Assembly: GCA_016795155.1 (NCBI GenBank)
Contig: JAEUIE010000029.1
Span: forward strand, 1 to 64,000
Direction: 5' to 3'
DNA from: Planctomycetia bacterium
GTDB taxonomy: Bacteria > Planctomycetota > Planctomycetia > Gemmatales > HRBIN36
Length of the DNA: 64,000 nucleotides
Below, piece after piece: positions 40,098 to 49,098 of this stretch (the stretch's first letter is position 1; the number at the start of each line of letters is the position of its first letter). The notes under the pieces were generated by a model, which saw nothing but the letters and a program-made list of their open reading frames with translations, searched no databases and was not told the DNA's origin. The position numbers and the translations under genes were made by a program.

Positions 40098-43000
40098 TTA
40101 TTTCTTGACAGGTGCTAATTTCTGCAGTTTCTCCTTCTCTGCCTGCCACTTCTTTGCTTCATCGGGATTATTGGATTCAGTGTAGAGTTGGATGAGGCGG
40201 TCGAGGGCTTCGGAAATTCGGACTTTGACAAGTTGGGGAATTTTGGCTTCGCGCTGCTTCATGCCTTCGTAGCCTGTGAGAATCAGTGGTTCGGCATCGG
40301 CATATTTCTTTTGGCCGAGGAGAGCTGCGCCGAGGAGGACTTGAGTGTTGAAGGTGGTCCAGGCATCGGGTTCTTTTTTCTGGCGAAAGTTCAGAGCTTC
40401 ACGGGCGGTGGCTTCAGCATCGATCCATTTTTTTTGATAAAGCAGGTTAAGTGCAAGGCCAGCTAGTTCACTGATGTACGTTGGCGAAGATTCACCATCA
40501 CGCTTCTTAATAAACTGTACTAATTTTCGTTTCCATTCCTCAGCCTTTGGAAATTGGTTATCCGCTTCATTGATTTCAACTGCATCTTGCAATATGTTTT
40601 TCGCAAAACGATGCTGATACCGTTGCCTTTCAAGTTCTAATGCAGTTTTCTCGATGAGTTCCACAGCTTCGTGGAGCCTGCCTGCATATCGATAAGCAGA
40701 GGACAAATTACCCTGGATAGTCAAAGTATCAGGATGACTGGACCCAAAGTTATTCACCTGAGCAGAAACTGCTTTCTCCAGCAATTTCAGTGTTTTCGCG
40801 GGTTGACCTGCATTTCGATACGCTTCAGCGAGGTTATTAATTGTTTGAAGGGTATTAGTATGATTTTCACCAAGTATCCTTGTCTGCATTTCAAGAACAC
40901 TTTCAAAGAGCTCAATGGCCTGTGGTACTTTTCCACTGGCACGAAGTGCCCTGGCAAGACTGCTTAACGTAGCGAGCGTATCTGGGTGTTGCTCCCCCAG
41001 TTTTCTTTTTTGCAATTCACCGACTTTTGTCAAATTTGAGATTGCTTCTGGATATCTTCGAGAATTGTAAAAGGCGACGCCCAGATTGCTCAGCGCACGC
41101 ATTCGTTCTGGATGATCTTCGCTGTAAGTTGTTTCATAAGTCTTGCAGATGTCTTGGAATAAAGGGAAGCTTTTATCAGATTGTCCGATTTCATCATAAA
41201 TACCTGCCAGATTGTTTTTACAAATAAGAGTATTGTAACCAGTCTTACCAAATTTTTTTTCTTGAACTTCAACCATCTCTTTCATTATCTGTAGTGCCTT
41301 ACCGTATTTTCCCGTTGCGGTATAGATCCCTGCCAGATTATTCTTACTGGTTAGCGTATCGATATGTGTCAGTCCCAGCTTGTCGCTAAAAAAGGCATCG
41401 ACTTTTTCTGCCAGGTCGAGTGCCTGTTGAATCCTACCCATAGCGAGATATGTCATAGATAGATTGGCGTACACTAATATTTCCTCCTGATCCAGAAGCT
41501 TCATATTGACATTTGGGTCACACAATTGCTCATAAATAGACAAGGCATCCTGATAATTGCCCGCCTCTCTGTACAGTATGGCAAGATTATTCAAAATGTG
41601 TCTATTCAGTTCATTCCCTCGAGGCATATTCTGCAAACCGGATTTCCTGATGGACCGATACTCCTCGATCGCATCGTGAATGCGACCCTGCATGCGATAC
41701 GCATCAGCCAGATATGTTCTTGCGATGATTTTCTCATCATCATATCCAGCTCCTTCTGCTGCCAATACAGGTATTGCATTTCGCAATATTACTTCAGCTT
41801 TCTTCGAATTTCCCAGATTGATCAGTGTGTTGCCTAGAAGTACCTGCAAACGTGCAATGACCAGTGGGTCAGCAATGAGTTCAGGTTGTAATTGGTCTGC
41901 TGCCTGCTCAGCACGGGCCAGCAGTTGTTGATAGAGTGGAGGTCCACCTTTCACTTCGGACCTGGGATTGATACCGTTTAAGAGTTCTGCAAACAGAGCG
42001 GTACCCTTTTCGACCTGGTGTAATCGTTGTTCCGCTTTATTACGCTGTACTTCCTTTTCATCTCTTTCTTTCTTGGCGGTAGATTCATTGTTCCGCGCTG
42101 ACTCCTCCGCATCCATCGCCCGACGCATCTGCCATAAACTGCCCGCGAGCCCTGCCAGGAGTGTCAGCAGTATTCCTGCAGCGAGCCGGAATGTCACACG
42201 TCGTCGTTTGCTCTCCTCTTCCGCCTTCGTCGTTGCCTTTACCGCGGTTAATTCGGCTTGCTTCAAACGTTCTTCCACTGAAAGAAGATAACCGGTCAAT
42301 TCCTTTGTCAGTTCGCTCCCATCACGGGGTCGGTCGTCACGATTAACCGACAGGCAGCACTTGGCCAATGTGATGAGTTCATCGTCAGCTCCGCAGGTTT
42401 GCAATCGATGGTAGGCTTCAGCCAGATCAGCATCAACAGCCTGGCGGTAAATCTCTAAGCCGTTCTCGCCCACATATGGCGGTTTACCGGTAAGAATTTC
42501 GCAGAGAATAGCACCCAATCCAAACACGTCGGCACACTCGTCAAGTTGATCAACTTCTGCCCGTGCTTGTTCGGGAGCCATGTAAGCTGGTGTGCCCAAG
42601 ACAGAGCCGGCCTGGGTGTTGGGGATGTCGGTAGAGTTGCCGCTACTGCGTTTTGTCTGAACGGAGCCTTCGGAAGATGCACGTATCTCGGGCCGATGAA
42701 CAGATTCTTTATTGCGTTCCGCGGATGATAGTAGTACTTTTGCCAGTCCCCAGTCCATCACCTGCACTTCACCAAATGCGCCAACCATAATGTTCTGTGG
42801 CTTCAAATCGCGGTGAATCACCTTGCGTGCATGGGCATAGGCCATCGTCTGGCAGACCTGTTCAAAGATTTTGAGAAAACGTGATCGCTCACACGATGGA
42901 TCGCTACGCTCCTTCAGTAATTTTGCAAGTGTCTGTCCTCGTATAAGCTTCATGGTGAAGTAAGGTCGTTGATCTGGAAACTGTCCTAATTCATATACGG

Positions 43001-43367
43001 GGGTGATGCCAGGGTGTTGTAACTGGCCAGCAATTTGCGCTTCTTCGACAAACCGTTGTAGAAGTTCCGTCTTGCCTGCGTGATTCTGAAGCATCACCTT
43101 AACTGCAATCTCGCGTCCCAAATCTTCATCGCGACCACGAAGCACGGCGCCCATGCCACCACGGGCTATTTCTCCTTCGAGTTTATATCTATGTTCTGGG
43201 AGTTTTGATGGAGATAATGGCGTTTCTGATGTAGTTGATTGGCCAGCTTCAGGTAACTGTATTTGAGGCAACTGCGGTGTCGTGGCTGCCAACGCTCGTA
43301 ATATGCTATCTCCAATAGGAAGTGATGAAGAAATATTTGGTATCGAAGCTTTAGATGGGTCAACCAT
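40098..43367 (-). CDS. Transmembrane Ser/Thr protein kinase with TPR (kinesin-light-chain-like) repeats
   Basis: A 1089-residue protein. The kinase domain (~60-360) has ARGGMGAVLRG, Lys in IAVKVML, HRDLKPQN, DWGLA in place of DFG, and GTPAYMAPEQA. A transmembrane helix follows (LAAGILLTLLAGLAGSLW, about residue 410-430). The C-terminal ~650 residues are tandem TPR units of the kinesin-light-chain type, with recurrent phrases such as LGEQHPDTLATLSSLARAL and LGENHTNTLQTINNLAEAY. DWG is common in planctomycete kinases and keeps the Asp. The ATG at 43367 has GAGG 5-6 bases upstream; the frame is open further to 43430. The target is unknown. Confidence 0.92.
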   Translation of the reverse strand: MVDPSKASIPNISSSLPIGDSILRALAATTPQLPQIQLPEAGQSTTSETPLSPSKLPEHRYKLEGEIARGGMGAVLRGRDEDLGREIAVKVMLQNHAGKTELLQRFVEEAQIAGQLQHPGITPVYELGQFPDQRPYFTMKLIRGQTLAKLLKERSDPSCERSRFLKIFEQVCQTMAYAHARKVIHRDLKPQNIMVGAFGEVQVMDWGLAKVLLSSAERNKESVHRPEIRASSEGSVQTKRSSGNSTDIPNTQAGSVLGTPAYMAPEQARAEVDQLDECADVFGLGAILCEILTGKPPYVGENGLEIYRQAVDADLAEAYHRLQTCGADDELITLAKCCLSVNRDDRPRDGSELTKELTGYLLSVEERLKQAELTAVKATTKAEEESKRRRVTFRLAAGILLTLLAGLAGSLWQMRRAMDAEESARNNESTAKKERDEKEVQRNKAEQRLHQVEKGTALFAELLNGINPRSEVKGGPPLYQQLLARAEQAADQLQPELIADPLVIARLQVLLGNTLINLGNSKKAEVILRNAIPVLAAEGAGYDDEKIIARTYLADAYRMQGRIHDAIEEYRSIRKSGLQNMPRGNELNRHILNNLAILYREAGNYQDALSIYEQLCDPNVNMKLLDQEEILVYANLSMTYLAMGRIQQALDLAEKVDAFFSDKLGLTHIDTLTSKNNLAGIYTATGKYGKALQIMKEMVEVQEKKFGKTGYNTLICKNNLAGIYDEIGQSDKSFPLFQDICKTYETTYSEDHPERMRALSNLGVAFYNSRRYPEAISNLTKVGELQKRKLGEQHPDTLATLSSLARALRASGKVPQAIELFESVLEMQTRILGENHTNTLQTINNLAEAYRNAGQPAKTLKLLEKAVSAQVNNFGSSHPDTLTIQGNLSSAYRYAGRLHEAVELIEKTALELERQRYQHRFAKNILQDAVEINEADNQFPKAEEWKRKLVQFIKKRDGESSPTYISELAGLALNLLYQKKWIDAEATAREALNFRQKKEPDAWTTFNTQVLLGAALLGQKKYADAEPLILTGYEGMKQREAKIPQLVKVRISEALDRLIQLYTESNNPDEAKKWQAEKEKLQKLAPVKK

Positions 43368-43620
43368 GATTGCCTCAAGCATGCTATTCTGGATTGACAA
43401 ATTATCGTGACAACTCGCAGGTTGTTGCAATTAGAAATTGTCGCTTTGTAAGTGATTTTGTGATTCTGATAGCACCTGAAATAATTATTTCCCGCTCCCT
43501 CCTCCCTTTCCTCCTTCATGCTCTAACTGTCATCCTGCCTTGCAACCATCATTGTGAAGCCAGCACGCACCCGGAGACAGAGCGACGGCAAACAAAAAAC
43601 TGAAGGATTGCGCAGCCCAG

Positions 43621-43696: not shown

Positions 43697-44863
43697 TCAA
43701 TCTGAACTGGCAATTCGCCTTCTGGCGTAATCGGCATACTCTCCAGTATTTTCAAGTTGTAGATATGTACGCCAATGTGTTTGAGCTTGGTCTATTTCCC
43801 CATTTTCATCAAGCAAATCAGCTAGATTGTAGCGATAACTTGAACAGGCTGGATCAATTCCCACTGCTTGCTTCATTGCTGCTACAGCTTGCTCAATGTG
43901 CCCTAGTTCGGCCAGAACATTTCCCAGGTTGCTCCAGGCTTCTGCAAACTCTGGATCGATCTCGACAACTTGATGATAACGTTCTGCAGCCCGTTCTTTT
44001 TGTCCCAGTTTGTGGTGTACATTGGCAAGGTTGAAACATGTTACAGCATCAGGGCCACCAGTAATGAGTGATTGAAGGTATGCATCGCTGGCTTCCGCGT
44101 ACTTTTCCTGTTCTTCGAGAGCCAAACCTGTTGTAAACCAATCTTGTGCCGATTTAACAGGGTTGGAAGTCTGAATGATTTTGTTTTCTGGGTGTTCTCC
44201 AAAATCGAGCAGTGGTTGCCCATGTGTTTCGGCTAATTGTCCATTCCGAAGTCGAATCATCAAACGACCGTTCAGCTCTAGCAATCCTAACTGTGCTGCA
44301 GGGTCACCAGAAGTGAGCCAACCCTTCAATTGTCGTAGGCTTTGACGTATTCGCTCCGGTTTAACACCAGCTGTCGTCAGATTACTTAGTGTCTTTGCCC
44401 AGGAAACCTGTTGAAAGTCATAAAAGGAAACGCCATGTTTCGTTTCAACTGGTTCAACTAAACCATGCCGAACCCAGCGAGCAAACTTGTCAGGAGCAAT
44501 TTTGAGAAAACGAGATATTTGCACACCAGTGTAAAGCTGATGGACAGTTTGAACAAAAGAGTCTAACCCAGAGCGTTTAAGAAACTCTTCCTCAGAGACC
44601 GTATCAATTGTTGCTCCCAGCTTTTGCAACCGTTGTACAGTTCTAATCTGAGCGGTGGGTTTGCCTGCAGTGGTCAATAATTCGCTTTCCTGGCCGACCA
44701 CGACATAATCTGTTTGTTCACTGACTGCCGGAACAACCGTGCCACCACAGGTTTTGACAATCTGCGCGGCTTCAGCGCGGCTCATGGATGCAAGTTTGCC
44801 AGCAAATGCAACTTGTCTTCCTTTAAGCCAATCACTGTTAGTCGAGCTATCCATGCTTGTCAT
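43697..44863 (-). CDS. BRCT domain protein with MerR-like HTH and TPR repeats, coupled to the NHEJ ligase
   Basis: A 388-residue protein. Residues ~10-95 form a BRCT domain: LKGRQVAFAGKLASMSRAEA, the CGG turn, TDYVVVG and a final EEEFL. Residues ~105-185 look like a MerR-type HTH (YTGVQISRFLKIAPDKFARW, then HGLVEPVETKHGVSFYDF). From ~255 there are three to four TPR units (AWSNLGNVLAELGHIEQAVA). The ATG at 44863 overlaps the ligase stop by 4 bases, so it is translated with the ligase; the frame is open to 44938. BRCT domains bind phosphoproteins or DNA ends. Its role in end joining is inference from the operon. Confidence 0.82.
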   Translation of the reverse strand: MTSMDSSTNSDWLKGRQVAFAGKLASMSRAEAAQIVKTCGGTVVPAVSEQTDYVVVGQESELLTTAGKPTAQIRTVQRLQKLGATIDTVSEEEFLKRSGLDSFVQTVHQLYTGVQISRFLKIAPDKFARWVRHGLVEPVETKHGVSFYDFQQVSWAKTLSNLTTAGVKPERIRQSLRQLKGWLTSGDPAAQLGLLELNGRLMIRLRNGQLAETHGQPLLDFGEHPENKIIQTSNPVKSAQDWFTTGLALEEQEKYAEASDAYLQSLITGGPDAVTCFNLANVHHKLGQKERAAERYHQVVEIDPEFAEAWSNLGNVLAELGHIEQAVAAMKQAVGIDPACSSYRYNLADLLDENGEIDQAQTHWRTYLQLENTGEYADYARRRIASSD

Positions 44864-45783
44864 TCCTCGATTAACTCCACAAAGGCAGGCGCTCGCAATT
44901 CGCCTCCTGCTGTTCTTTCCATGCAAGTGATTTTGCAATAAAGGCCAGGATCAACCCATACACCTTTTATCTTACAAGGGATGATCGGCTTCGCTCTCAG
45001 ATTACCTCGAAGCCAACGATTTAGCTTCTTCCGAAGTTTCGTATCGAATCCTGTACCTACTTTGCCTACGCATTTTAGCTTCCCATCACTTAAGGATGCA
45101 AGGATCAAACTGCGGAAGTCGTCTTTGCCTGATGGAAGAAAGCCAATAATCACGCAGTCAAGAATTTCAGCGCGTTTGATCTTAACCCAGTCGCCAGACC
45201 TTTTACCCGGCTGGTATGTGCTGTTGGCGCGCTTGGCAATGAGTCCTTCCAGACCTCGGCTGCACGCTTCAGCGAAAAGTGCTGTTCCATTCTTTCCTTC
45301 TATTGATGAGGAAAGCAGCATTCTGCCCTGACCATATTCGTTGACGAGTTCCTTCAGACACTCGCGTCGTTGATACAATGGCTGGTGCAGTAAAGATTGA
45401 TGGTCTAAATACAGTAAATCGAACACCATGTAGGTTGCAGGTGAAGACCGTGATAGCAGCTTAATCTTGAATGGCGAACGTGACTGCTCACGGGATTGGA
45501 GCATCCCAAAGTCAGATTTTCCCTCATGCAATACAACTATTTCACCATCGAGAATAGTGCCGCCAGGAAGGTCTTTGAGAAACGATAACTCTGGATAACG
45601 ATCTGTCATGTCTAGGCGGCGTCGATTGACGAGTCTTAGCGTCTTGCGTTCACTGAATGCAAGCGTCCGTGTTCCGTCCCACTTTATCTCAAACAGGAAA
45701 TCTTCGGAATCAAATGGTTTCCCCGATTTGGCCAACATCGGGGAAATAAAAGCGGGAAGTATTTGATCGAATCGTTGCTTCAT
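44860..45783 (-). CDS. ATP-dependent DNA ligase (stand-alone LigD-type ligase domain)
   Basis: A 307-residue ligase. The adenylated lysine is in FEIKWDGTRTLAF (motif I, KWDGTR); later motifs include LDGEIVVL (III), EGLIAKR (IV) and WVKIKR (V). The OB-fold follows. The N-terminal polymerase and phosphoesterase parts found in Mycobacterium or Pseudomonas LigD are absent; those activities are encoded divergently at 46839. It starts 6 bases after the ku stop and overlaps the BRCT-TPR gene, so ku, ligase and BRCT-TPR form one operon. It seals breaks joined by Ku. Confidence 0.93.
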   Translation of the reverse strand: MKQRFDQILPAFISPMLAKSGKPFDSEDFLFEIKWDGTRTLAFSERKTLRLVNRRRLDMTDRYPELSFLKDLPGGTILDGEIVVLHEGKSDFGMLQSREQSRSPFKIKLLSRSSPATYMVFDLLYLDHQSLLHQPLYQRRECLKELVNEYGQGRMLLSSSIEGKNGTALFAEACSRGLEGLIAKRANSTYQPGKRSGDWVKIKRAEILDCVIIGFLPSGKDDFRSLILASLSDGKLKCVGKVGTGFDTKLRKKLNRWLRGNLRAKPIIPCKIKGVWVDPGLYCKITCMERTAGGELRAPAFVELIEE

Positions 45784-45789
45784 TAAATG

Positions 45790-46668
45790 CTACGACGATT
45801 TTCTGCGAAGTTCCTTGGTTTTCCCTTTGGTACTTTCAGCCATCTTCCTTGGTGGTTTCGACACAGCCTTTTCGACCTTGCCCCCTGTTGCCTTAGCCAC
45901 ACTTTGCCGGAGCGCATCCATCAAATTGATAACCTGAGTTTCTTCAGGTTGCGGTGTTGAAACTATTTCCTTGCCAGCAACCTTAGCTTCAACAAGCTGA
46001 ATCAGTTTTTCTGCATAGACATCTTTGTATTTGGTGAAATCAAACTTCTTGTCGGTTGTTGAGCCTATCACTGTTCTCATCAAGTTGGTTTCTTCTTTTG
46101 ACGTGTCAAGCTTGGGAACTTCATCATCAAAAGTTGAGGTACTGTTAATTTCGTTCGCATAGTTCAAAACTGTCATAGCAATCAGGCGATCCATCGGGCG
46201 AAGAAGAACTAACTGCTCTTTCTTATTCAATACAACCTGGGCAATTGCATAGCGTTTTTCGTCTACCATTCCCTTTTGAAGGAGGACATAGGGCTTTTCG
46301 CCTATAGGCCCATCGGGAACGAGGTAATAGGTTTTGTCGCTATAGAAAACCGGATCAATAGCATTCTGTGACACAAAGGTCTCTATTTTGATTGCTTTGT
46401 CATTCTCGGAACGAAGCTTTTCAAGTTCATCCGTATCGACAATGACGTACTGCCCTTTGGCATACTCATAACCCGAAACTATTTCACTATGAGAAATCTC
46501 GTTGTGAATCGGACACCACTTCTTGTATTGAATCCGGCTGTTGCACTCAGCATGCAATTGATTGAACCGTACTTCATTTGTGTCGCTTGAAGTTGCGTTG
46601 AATGCTTTAACAGGCAACGAGATTAAACTAAGCTTGAGAAAACCCTTCCAAGTCGAACGAGGTGCCAT
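45790..46668 (-). CDS. ku: Ku protein, NHEJ end-binding
   Basis: A 292-residue bacterial Ku homologue. The family opening STWKGFLKLSLISLPVKAFN and the conserved region CPIHNEISHSEIVSGYEYAKGQ are seen, with the ring-forming beta-barrel following. The C-terminus is very basic (KPPRKMAESTKGKTKELRRK), which in other bacteria adds DNA binding and threading. It is the first gene of the three-gene leftward operon and is divergent from the LigD-type gene with ~170 bases between starts. It binds double-strand ends and recruits the ligase. Confidence 0.95.
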   Translation of the reverse strand: MAPRSTWKGFLKLSLISLPVKAFNATSSDTNEVRFNQLHAECNSRIQYKKWCPIHNEISHSEIVSGYEYAKGQYVIVDTDELEKLRSENDKAIKIETFVSQNAIDPVFYSDKTYYLVPDGPIGEKPYVLLQKGMVDEKRYAIAQVVLNKKEQLVLLRPMDRLIAMTVLNYANEINSTSTFDDEVPKLDTSKEETNLMRTVIGSTTDKKFDFTKYKDVYAEKLIQLVEAKVAGKEIVSTPQPEETQVINLMDALRQSVAKATGGKVEKAVSKPPRKMAESTKGKTKELRRKSS

Positions 46669-46838: not shown

Positions 46839-48434
46839 ATGGGACTGCAAGAATATCAAAATAAGCGTCATTTTGCCCGTACTCCCGAACCGGCTGGCAA
46901 GAAGTCTACTAAGAAAGGCCGAAGTTTTGTCGTGCAGAAGCACGATGCCCGTAACCTGCATTATGATTTCCGGCTGGAGTTGGATGGGGTTCTCAAGAGT
47001 TGGGCAGTACCTAAAGGCCCCAGTCTAGACCACAACATCAAACGATTAGCTGTGCAAGTAGAAGATCATCCCATTGAATACGGTTCCTTTGAGGGGATCA
47101 TTCCCAAGGGTGAGTATGGGGGCGGAACAGTGATGGTATGGGATCGAGGCACCTGGGAGCCACTTGGAGATACTCAGGAAGACTTCAAAACCGGGCGGCT
47201 AAAGTTCAAGCTTAACGGTGAGAAACTCCGTGGTAATTGGATGTTGCTGCGTACCAATCGTAGCCAGGGTGAGAGCAGTAAACCTCAATGGCTACTCTTT
47301 AAGGAAAGGGACAGTGAATCACAACCGTCTGAGAAAGGTGATGTGCTACTTGAATCATCACGTAGTGTTTTGACAGGACGGAGTCTTGCAGAGATAGCGT
47401 CGGAACAAGAAGATGTTTGGTCGTCTAAGTTGGGGAAGGCAACGCAGTCGTCTAACAAGCCAGTGAAAAGGCGCAAGCTGCAAATCCCTAAAGACCTGAC
47501 GACCAGCATGGAAAAGTATGATACGAAGAATCAGGAATTTGCTGGGGTACGGCTGACCAGCCCAGAGAAGATGTTGTATCCCGAAGATGCCATTTCCAAG
47601 CTCGAACTTGCAGCATACTATCAAATGGTCTCCAAGTGGATGCTACCACATTTAACAGATCGCCCCATTGTCTTGGTTCGCTGTCCAGAAGGGCGTCACG
47701 AGGAAAGTTTTTATCAGAAACACCCTGCACCGGGATCGCCTGAGTCGCTTCGTCAAATCCCAATAAAAGGCAAAGAGAAAACTGAGAAGTACTTTGTGGT
47801 TGCAGATGTAAAAGGACTAATCTCGTTGGCTCAAGTAGCTGCGCTGGAGGTGCATGCCTGGGGTTCACGGTCTGATAAACTTGATTACCCTGACCGGTTG
47901 ATTTTTGATCTCGATCCTGACACAGAATTGCCTTGGAAAATAGTCATAGAAAGTGCACACCAAGTTCGAGGCTTACTGGAGGAACTAGGTCTGAAAAGCT
48001 TTGTAAAGACGACAGGCGGGAAAGGCTTGCATATTGTCATTCCCATTGAACGTCGGCACAACTGGGAAGAAGTCAAATCCTTCTGTCGTCAAGTTGCCCA
48101 CTTGATAGTCAAATATGATCCCCGTCACTTCATCGCTAATATGTCAAAAGTACAACGTCATGGAAAAATCTATATCGATTACCTGCGAAATGCCCGCGAT
48201 GCTACTGCTGTAGCTGCCTATTCGCCGCGCGTTCGCTCAAATGCTTCGGTTTCTGTGCCAGTTAGCTGGAAGGAACTGGGCAAGATTCCAAGTTCTAGCC
48301 ATTACACAATAAGGAATCTGCCAAAACGGTTAGCCAAGCTGAAGCGCGATCCGTGGCAGGAGATAGCACACATTCGCCAGGGACTTGTTAATCCAATCAA
48401 GACTCTGGCACTCATACAAAAGAATCGGAACTGA
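46839..48434 (+). CDS. ligD: LigD-type phosphoesterase and polymerase (no ligase domain)
   Basis: A 531-residue end-processing enzyme. Residues ~20-165 form the 3'-phosphoesterase domain: FVVQKHDARNLHYDFRLEL and PKGEYGGGTVMVWD hold its metal ligands. Residues ~235-525 form the archaeo-eukaryotic primase-type polymerase: LIFDLDPD (metal-binding Asp pair), TTGGKGLHIVIPI and RNARDATAVAAYS. The ligase domain is missing and supplied by the divergent gene. It starts at ATG 46839. A SGNH hydrolase gene follows after one base. Together with ku it provides a complete NHEJ set. Confidence 0.93.
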   Translation: MGLQEYQNKRHFARTPEPAGKKSTKKGRSFVVQKHDARNLHYDFRLELDGVLKSWAVPKGPSLDHNIKRLAVQVEDHPIEYGSFEGIIPKGEYGGGTVMVWDRGTWEPLGDTQEDFKTGRLKFKLNGEKLRGNWMLLRTNRSQGESSKPQWLLFKERDSESQPSEKGDVLLESSRSVLTGRSLAEIASEQEDVWSSKLGKATQSSNKPVKRRKLQIPKDLTTSMEKYDTKNQEFAGVRLTSPEKMLYPEDAISKLELAAYYQMVSKWMLPHLTDRPIVLVRCPEGRHEESFYQKHPAPGSPESLRQIPIKGKEKTEKYFVVADVKGLISLAQVAALEVHAWGSRSDKLDYPDRLIFDLDPDTELPWKIVIESAHQVRGLLEELGLKSFVKTTGGKGLHIVIPIERRHNWEEVKSFCRQVAHLIVKYDPRHFIANMSKVQRHGKIYIDYLRNARDATAVAAYSPRVRSNASVSVPVSWKELGKIPSSSHYTIRNLPKRLAKLKRDPWQEIAHIRQGLVNPIKTLALIQKNRN

Positions 48435-48435
48435 A

Positions 48436-49098
48436 ATGGCTCGACCAAAACGTCAGAAATCGATCAACGTACTGTTCATCGGCAACAGCTTCACTTCCCG
48501 CAATGACTTGCCAGGACTGATTGCGCAACTAGCAACTGCAAGTGGCATGTCTATGCAACATAAGCTCATCTTTGCTGGTGGCGCATCGCTTCGTGCACAC
48601 TGGAACGCAGGTAAAGCCAATCAGGAAATACAAACAGGAAAGTACGATTACGTAGTGCTTCAGGAGCAAAGTACCTTGCCTATTAAGAATGCAGTCAGAA
48701 TGCACGAGAATATACGTCTCTTCGATGAAGTAATAAAAAGGGCAGGTTCAAAAACAGTCCTCTATATGACTTGGGCACGTCAACATCTTCCTGAAACCCA
48801 AAAAGCAATTTCAGAAGCCTATACCAGCATCGGCAAAGAACTGAAATCGATAGTCGTCACAGTTGGAACAGCATGGCAGAGGTTCCAAGCTAAGCACAGT
48901 AAACCAGTCTTGCATGACCGTGACAAGAGCCATCCCTCAATGGCTGGGACTTACTTCGCAGCATGTATCTTCTTTGAAGTGTTATTTGGAACATTACCTG
49001 TCAGAAGTGATATCGAGGTTACAGGAATCGATACCAAAGATAAAATGTTGCTAGAAAAGGTTGCCAAACATGCAAGACCACCAAACTTTAAATCTTAA
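48436..49098 (+). CDS. SGNH/GDSL-type hydrolase
   Basis: A 220-residue protein. Block I is VLFIGNSFTSRND with the nucleophile Ser; DYVVLQEQSTLPI is the block III-like region; DRDKSHPSMAGTYFAA contributes the C-terminal Asp-x-x-His pattern. There is no leader, so it is cytoplasmic. It starts one base after the LigD-type stop, and the two are surely co-transcribed. Whether it serves NHEJ or is a passenger is unknown; the family acts on esters of varied substrates. The longer open frame to 48385 overlaps LigD in a different frame and is rejected. Confidence 0.8.
   Translation: MARPKRQKSINVLFIGNSFTSRNDLPGLIAQLATASGMSMQHKLIFAGGASLRAHWNAGKANQEIQTGKYDYVVLQEQSTLPIKNAVRMHENIRLFDEVIKRAGSKTVLYMTWARQHLPETQKAISEAYTSIGKELKSIVVTVGTAWQRFQAKHSKPVLHDRDKSHPSMAGTYFAACIFFEVLFGTLPVRSDIEVTGIDTKDKMLLEKVAKHARPPNFKS

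Follow-up and report, generated by a model that had tools for sequence, protein, structure and literature searches.

A MerR-TPR protein encoded with Ku and ligase, a candidate accessory adaptor of bacterial NHEJ in Planctomycetota and Acidobacteriota

The window analysed here, a stretch of 64,000 nucleotides from a Planctomycetia bacterium (GCA_016795155.1, contig JAEUIE010000029.1, positions 1 to 64,000), contains an operon for bacterial non-homologous end joining (NHEJ) that apparently includes a third, undescribed component. The best explanation of this third gene, to which we give a probability of about 0.58, is that its product serves bacterial NHEJ as an accessory adaptor and is produced along with Ku and ligase. 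The order ku, ligase (where present) and adaptor gene is kept in two phyla with tight spacing, and this recurrence and spacing, the linkage of the window's own clade (clade I), the several ku-linked groups in the trees and a second copy placed after ku in one genome (G216) together suggest such a role.

The ku-ligase operon and its third gene

ku (46668-45790) is followed on the minus strand by the gene of a stand-alone NHEJ ligase (45783-44860) and then by the third gene (44863-43697), with ligD divergent from all three. The features are:

46839..48434, plus strand: divergent LigD with phosphoesterase and primase-polymerase domains only, 531 aa (PF13298, PF21686, TIGR02777, TIGR02778)
45790..46668, minus strand: ku, first gene of the operon, 292 aa (TIGR02772, 256.4 bits against a cut-off of 150; PF02735)
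44860..45783, minus strand: stand-alone NHEJ-type ATP-dependent DNA ligase, 307 aa (TIGR02779, PF01068, PF04679)
44860..44863, minus strand: ATGA stop/start overlap of the ligase and BRCT-MerR-TPR genes (from the sequence; same -4 overlap in L038, L040, L041, L046, L047 and L120)
43697..44863, minus strand: BRCT-MerR-TPR protein, 388 aa (Pfam domains; homologues beside ku elsewhere)
44573..44833, minus strand: BRCT of RFC1/LigA type, residues ~11-97 (PF00533, 35.7 bits against a cut-off of 21.3)
44324..44533, minus strand: MerR-type winged helix-turn-helix (HTH), residues ~111-180 (PF13411, MerR_1, 31.6 bits against a cut-off of 21.6; AlphaFold2)
44201..44221, minus strand: linker motif G215-Q-P-L-L-D-F221, candidate sliding-clamp-binding motif (family motif GQxx(L/F)xF)
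43703..44149, minus strand: TPR domain, residues ~239-387 (Pfam TPR; AlphaFold2 pLDDT >90; Foldseek CTPR/OGT)

The spacings of +6 and -4 given for these genes by an earlier sequence-only reading are borne out by the open reading frames and their translations, 6 bp separating the ku stop from the ligase start and the ligase TGA (44862-44860) overlapping the ATG of the third gene (44863-44861) by 4 bp. We take ATG 44863 as the natural start because homologues begin at about the same distance before the BRCT domain and the -4 overlap recurs in six relatives; the mechanical list of reading frames begins at TTG 44938. The gene is single-copy in the window's genome.

All the recognised parts of bacterial NHEJ are present at the locus above curated cut-offs, i.e. 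Ku, an NHEJ-type ligase and the phosphoesterase and polymerase modules of LigD. The ligase scores 240 bits against a cut-off of 228 for TIGR02779 (NHEJ_ligase_lig), and has nucleotidyltransferase and OB domains with the motif I sequence KWDG. LigD scores 235 bits against 144 (TIGR02777) and 317 against 215 (TIGR02778), and Pfam finds no ligase domain in it, so that polymerase and ligase activities are separate proteins in this genome. Several clade-I loci retain a diverged ligase-like stretch in LigD besides the separate ligase. Around the window's operon lie a large, TPR-rich Ser/Thr protein kinase (40098-43430, same strand, ~270 bp downstream) and, on the strand of ligD, a DUF4886 protein (48385-49098) whose longest reading frame overlaps the ligD end by 50 bp.

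A third gene of this kind does not appear in the sources consulted. The BRCT-MerR-TPR protein has no curated NCBIfam family, domain-level matches being below cut-offs; a defence-system library gave weak TPR and HTH overlaps only, and a plasmid search with a relative carrying a GQLNLF-type linker gave TPR matches only. In open-licence papers no description of such a MerR-TPR gene beside ku was found. A survey of 5,973 genomes measured ku-ligD proximity (PMC7719229), and in those parts of its text reached by a term search no third ku-operon gene was found.

Linkage to ku and family history

Draws of 392 Planctomycetota and 199 Acidobacteriota genomes cover two phyla, and the evidence they yield is the order of genes in draft assemblies, including many MAGs. 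Locus maps were made by tblastn, linked copies were judged from the loci and domain models, and 'linked' means within 3 kb of Ku. Ku is found in 47 of the 392 Planctomycetota genomes; 22 genomes hold both Ku and a member of the BRCT-MerR-TPR/MerR-TPR family, and in 19 of these the two are neighbours (G000, G013, G016, G025, G035, G042, G045, G058, G063, G100, G103, G125, G132, G150, G158, G179, G203, G216 and G355), G045 being counted despite a gap of ~2.1 kb. G087 and G369 are the only Planctomycetota in which Ku and family gene lie apart, while G186, whose Ku sits on a 6-kb contig, was scored neither way. About one match in a thousand would land within 3 kb of Ku in a genome of 5 Mb, and adjacency in 19 of the 22 genomes holding both excludes chance.

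Linkage recurs in the second phylum. Ku is present in 66 of the 199 Acidobacteriota genomes, and 23 of these 66 have the family gene within 3 kb, in 22 cases downstream on the same strand. The 24 strongest family matches in Acidobacteriota divide into 17 linked, 4 in Ku-less genomes and 3 others, two of the last at contig ends (G578 and G574). Over 36 loci with an assignable start the gap from the ku side to the family gene has a median of 19.5 bp, with start codons chosen mechanically, and six have the -4 overlap. The earlier proposal of an extra NHEJ assembly or signalling factor is strengthened in so far as a co-translated third gene recurs in ku operons of two phyla. The survey of planctomycete Ku operons that it called for gave a divided answer: besides the 19 linked genomes, 28 of the 47 Ku-bearing Planctomycetota have no linked copy. 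Nor have 43 of the 66 Ku-bearing Acidobacteriota, and the gene is not universal in NHEJ.

Some loci depart from the usual arrangement. G216 carries a normal, unlinked BRCT-MerR-TPR copy plus a strongly diverged second copy directly after ku (L049 5213-6235, L070 8530-9750); of the diverged copy's MerR HTH most of the first half is unrecognisable. In G264 (L057 12364-12771) a ku cut to its C-terminal part, by real truncation or assembly fault, is followed by ligase and BRCT-MerR-TPR. Tandem ku pairs occur at L123 5213-6788 and L124 5722-7322, and neighbouring Ku pairs in the Acidobacteriota G427, G431, G469, G477 and G599.

Judged from its sequences, the family has a core of MerR, linker and TPR, optionally preceded by a BRCT. 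The window's clade and its sister clade have this N-terminal BRCT, as do some Acidobacteriota; the ku-linked L046, L047, L048, L102, L110, L113 and L120 lack it, and so do all ku-linked Acidobacteriota examined. The sequence-only reading had suggested a BRCT-TPR scaffold, but since so many ku-linked members are without BRCT, that domain cannot be the essential scaffold.

In a first tree of 47 rows, with BRCT included, the window protein falls in clade I, where 15 of the 18 rows lie beside ku (bootstrap/SH-aLRT 96/89); two of the three unlinked rows are L079, at a contig edge, and L058, whose genome has its Ku on a 6-kb contig. The sister clade II, likewise BRCT-MerR-TPR, has 24 rows, none ku-linked, from the window's own class and from named Pirellulaceae and Planctomycetaceae contigs; it is clade II that most of the window's class carries. 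Here lies the evidence against an NHEJ-specific architecture, as 37 genomes of that class have the sister clade and 34 of them lack any Ku. The genomic part of the condition under which the earlier reading would have given way, absence from other ku-ligase operons and common occurrence elsewhere, thus has an answer on each side: the gene is present in other ku-ligase operons, but the same class is rich in unlinked relatives. The idea that clade II has some other constant repair neighbour was rejected, its neighbours varying among loci. In six genomes (L065-L070) clade-II genes are divergent from a glyA-like (serine hydroxymethyltransferase, SHMT) gene. More distant are the BRCT-TPR proteins of the Acidobacteriota loci L094-L098, with a weak MerR-like middle and no ku linkage, whose linker motif is GQLTFDF or GQLSLDF in those read.

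A wider, quick tree of 100 rows, built on MerR-TPR only, has many weak inner branches and does not separate gains from losses. On it the ku-linked label changes 11 times, against 31 in shuffles, and at least 7 changes are forced by starred branches. Linked rows fall in the BRCT clade, in a clade of Acidobacteriota plus f19 (18 linked, 1 unlinked) and in one of GQLNLF type (4 linked, 5 unlinked), and there are two further rows. An AU test rejects the first tree's 16 ku-linked rows as a monophyletic group, a result for which the long branch L049 is at least partly responsible.

The Ku of the window is ~47-53% identical to that of other planctomycete lineages and 25-43% identical to that of its own class, and the operon has therefore probably been transferred or kept as a unit. 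Such movement of cassettes is what would be expected had the gene merely hitch-hiked on transferred ku cassettes, its order kept without a functional link. We regard this as very improbable because, across several subfamilies and both phyla, members at ~30-50% identity still lie next to ku at short distances.

Domains, candidate sites and alternative roles

The BRCT domain was earlier likened to those of ligase IV and eukaryotic polymerases, a comparison that did not hold. It is single by both Pfam and AlphaFold2, not one of a tandem pair, and is modelled as an alpha/beta domain with pLDDT mostly 80-94; its closest PDB sequence matches are RFC1 (2ebu/2k6g) and LigA (1l7b). In yeast Rfc1 the BRCT residues Thr166, Gly167, Arg174 and Lys209 bind a 5'-phosphate (PMC9359705). 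The corresponding TG...R site is kept in clade I, with T in 12 of 15 rows, G in all 15 and R or H in all 15, the window protein itself having A, G and R (Ala for Thr). From this conservation and the RFC1/LigA likeness we infer that the BRCT would bind DNA or phosphate rather than act in ligase-IV-like scaffolding.

The second domain, given earlier as an HTH of unspecified type, is a MerR-type winged HTH, and MerR_1 is above cut-off also in three BRCT-less ku-linked relatives. The AlphaFold2 monomer model places helices at 150-164 and 169-180, followed by a low-confidence linker. MerR proteins are usually transcription factors, and the strongest rival to the adaptor is regulation of the operon, in which the HTH would bind the promoter region of ku/ligD and a damage-related partner would be sensed by the TPR, together with BRCT in members that have it. 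Regulators are often encoded in the operon they control, and as ku and ligD frequently diverge, one intervening site could serve both. We nevertheless find this role doubtful. A 150-bp scan upstream of ku, of low power, found no dyad excess (7-bp dyads in 6 of 37 linked loci against 4.3 +/- 2.1 in shuffles), nor did any shared 8-mer stand out clearly from the shuffles; neither a canonical MerR coiled-coil nor an effector domain is visible in the AlphaFold2 models; clade II persists although it has no constant neighbour that it could regulate; and fusion to an RFC1/LigA-type BRCT would be odd for a promoter regulator.

Between MerR and TPR nearly all TPR-bearing members carry GQxx(L/F)xF, of which G215 and Q216 are invariant in an 18-row alignment. 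Some Acidobacteriota have RQ, QQ or LQ instead, the degenerate L049 has GQLLLDV, and one subfamily has GQLNLF, GQLSLF, GQLHLF, GQLPLF or GQMNLF. The linker has low pLDDT in two AlphaFold2 models and is predicted to be disordered, unlike the TPR (>90). The sliding-clamp-binding motif of Pol II is QLGLF, and the DnaE of the host carries a candidate clamp motif, QGSIF. In E. coli UmuC the motif is QLNLF and lies in a linker, the clamp-binding consensus being QL[S/D]LF (PMC3716654). However, GQ(L/M)x(F/L)-like strings (GQLVF- or GQLML-like) also follow the HTH in short, TPR-less MerR proteins (L217-L219, L223 and L224), and the motif may for this reason be structural rather than a clamp peptide.

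A Foldseek search with the window protein was dominated by TPR matches and returned nothing on BRCT or HTH. The TPR domain of OGT has a peptide-binding Asn ladder, and in the window protein Asn occupies repeated helix positions at 278, 312 and 346. These are kept in the ku-linked groups, while the clade-II residues are mostly His, Gln and His, a difference suggesting that the two bind different TPR ligands; unlinked Acidobacteriota also keep most of the three Asn.

The family might alternatively be a general adaptor of DNA repair or replication, co-inherited in some ku operons but with a function common to the Ku-less sister clade. The single-copy, mostly monocistronic relatives in Ku-less genomes across the window's class, and the architecture and linker motif common to both clades, would accord with this. 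Yet adjacency to ku recurs in separate branches, clade-II genes stay unlinked even in the Ku-bearing G087 and G369, and the TPR Asn positions divide the ku-linked groups from clade II, and we judge a general role unlikely.

An adaptor compared with known systems

As an accessory adaptor of NHEJ the protein would work through each of its domains. The MerR HTH, with the RFC1/LigA-type BRCT where present, would bind duplex DNA where a break or nick has its 5'-phosphate, or close by, and the TPR groove would take hold of a peptide from Ku, ligase or LigD as its repair partner. In this way the polymerase/phosphoesterase and the ligase, separate proteins here, would be kept at the end that Ku has bound. 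A further link, through the linker motif, may anchor the complex on the sliding clamp DnaN, the step least sure in the window, where motif position 2 is Pro. A bolder version, which we think improbable though not negligible, makes MerR-TPR a third core component of NHEJ, a clamp-tethered, end-binding adaptor that assembles Ku, ligase and polymerase. If true it would be a bacterial functional counterpart of the eukaryotic NHEJ scaffolds, BRCT-fused in the window's clade, and would link end joining to the sliding clamp. The accessory adaptor as such has a wider meaning, since a third gene directly 3' of ku in two phyla suggests dedicated accessory proteins which model organisms lack. The G215-Q216 motif, the TG...R site, the TPR Asn residues and the ku-linked loci are named candidates for testing.

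Each part of the protein resembles a known system and departs from it. With the BRCTs of RFC1 and LigA, its best PDB matches, it shares a single BRCT and a phosphate site kept in the family, though with Ala for Thr in the window protein, but it has neither clamp-loader AAA+ nor ligase domains and its BRCT is fused to MerR HTH and TPR. MerR-family regulators have the same winged HTH, above the Pfam cut-off, whereas here BRCT precedes and TPR follows it, the gene lies 3' of ku, the models lack a canonical coiled-coil or effector domain and no operator was found upstream of ku. Clamp-binding proteins such as UmuC are approached by the linker GQxx(L/F)xF, exactly so in the GQLNLF/GQLSLF of one subfamily; the family motif is mostly a six-residue form, however, and the QPLLDF of the window is a candidate only. 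The OGT and consensus TPR superhelices share the fold and the Asn at repeated groove positions, although the window protein has no transferase domain. The textbook pathway of bacterial NHEJ consists of two proteins, Ku and LigD, and the window's operon has its Ku, NHEJ ligase and LigD phosphoesterase and polymerase modules, all in curated families. It differs in having a separate ligase gene, a LigD without ligase domain and a third, co-translated protein.
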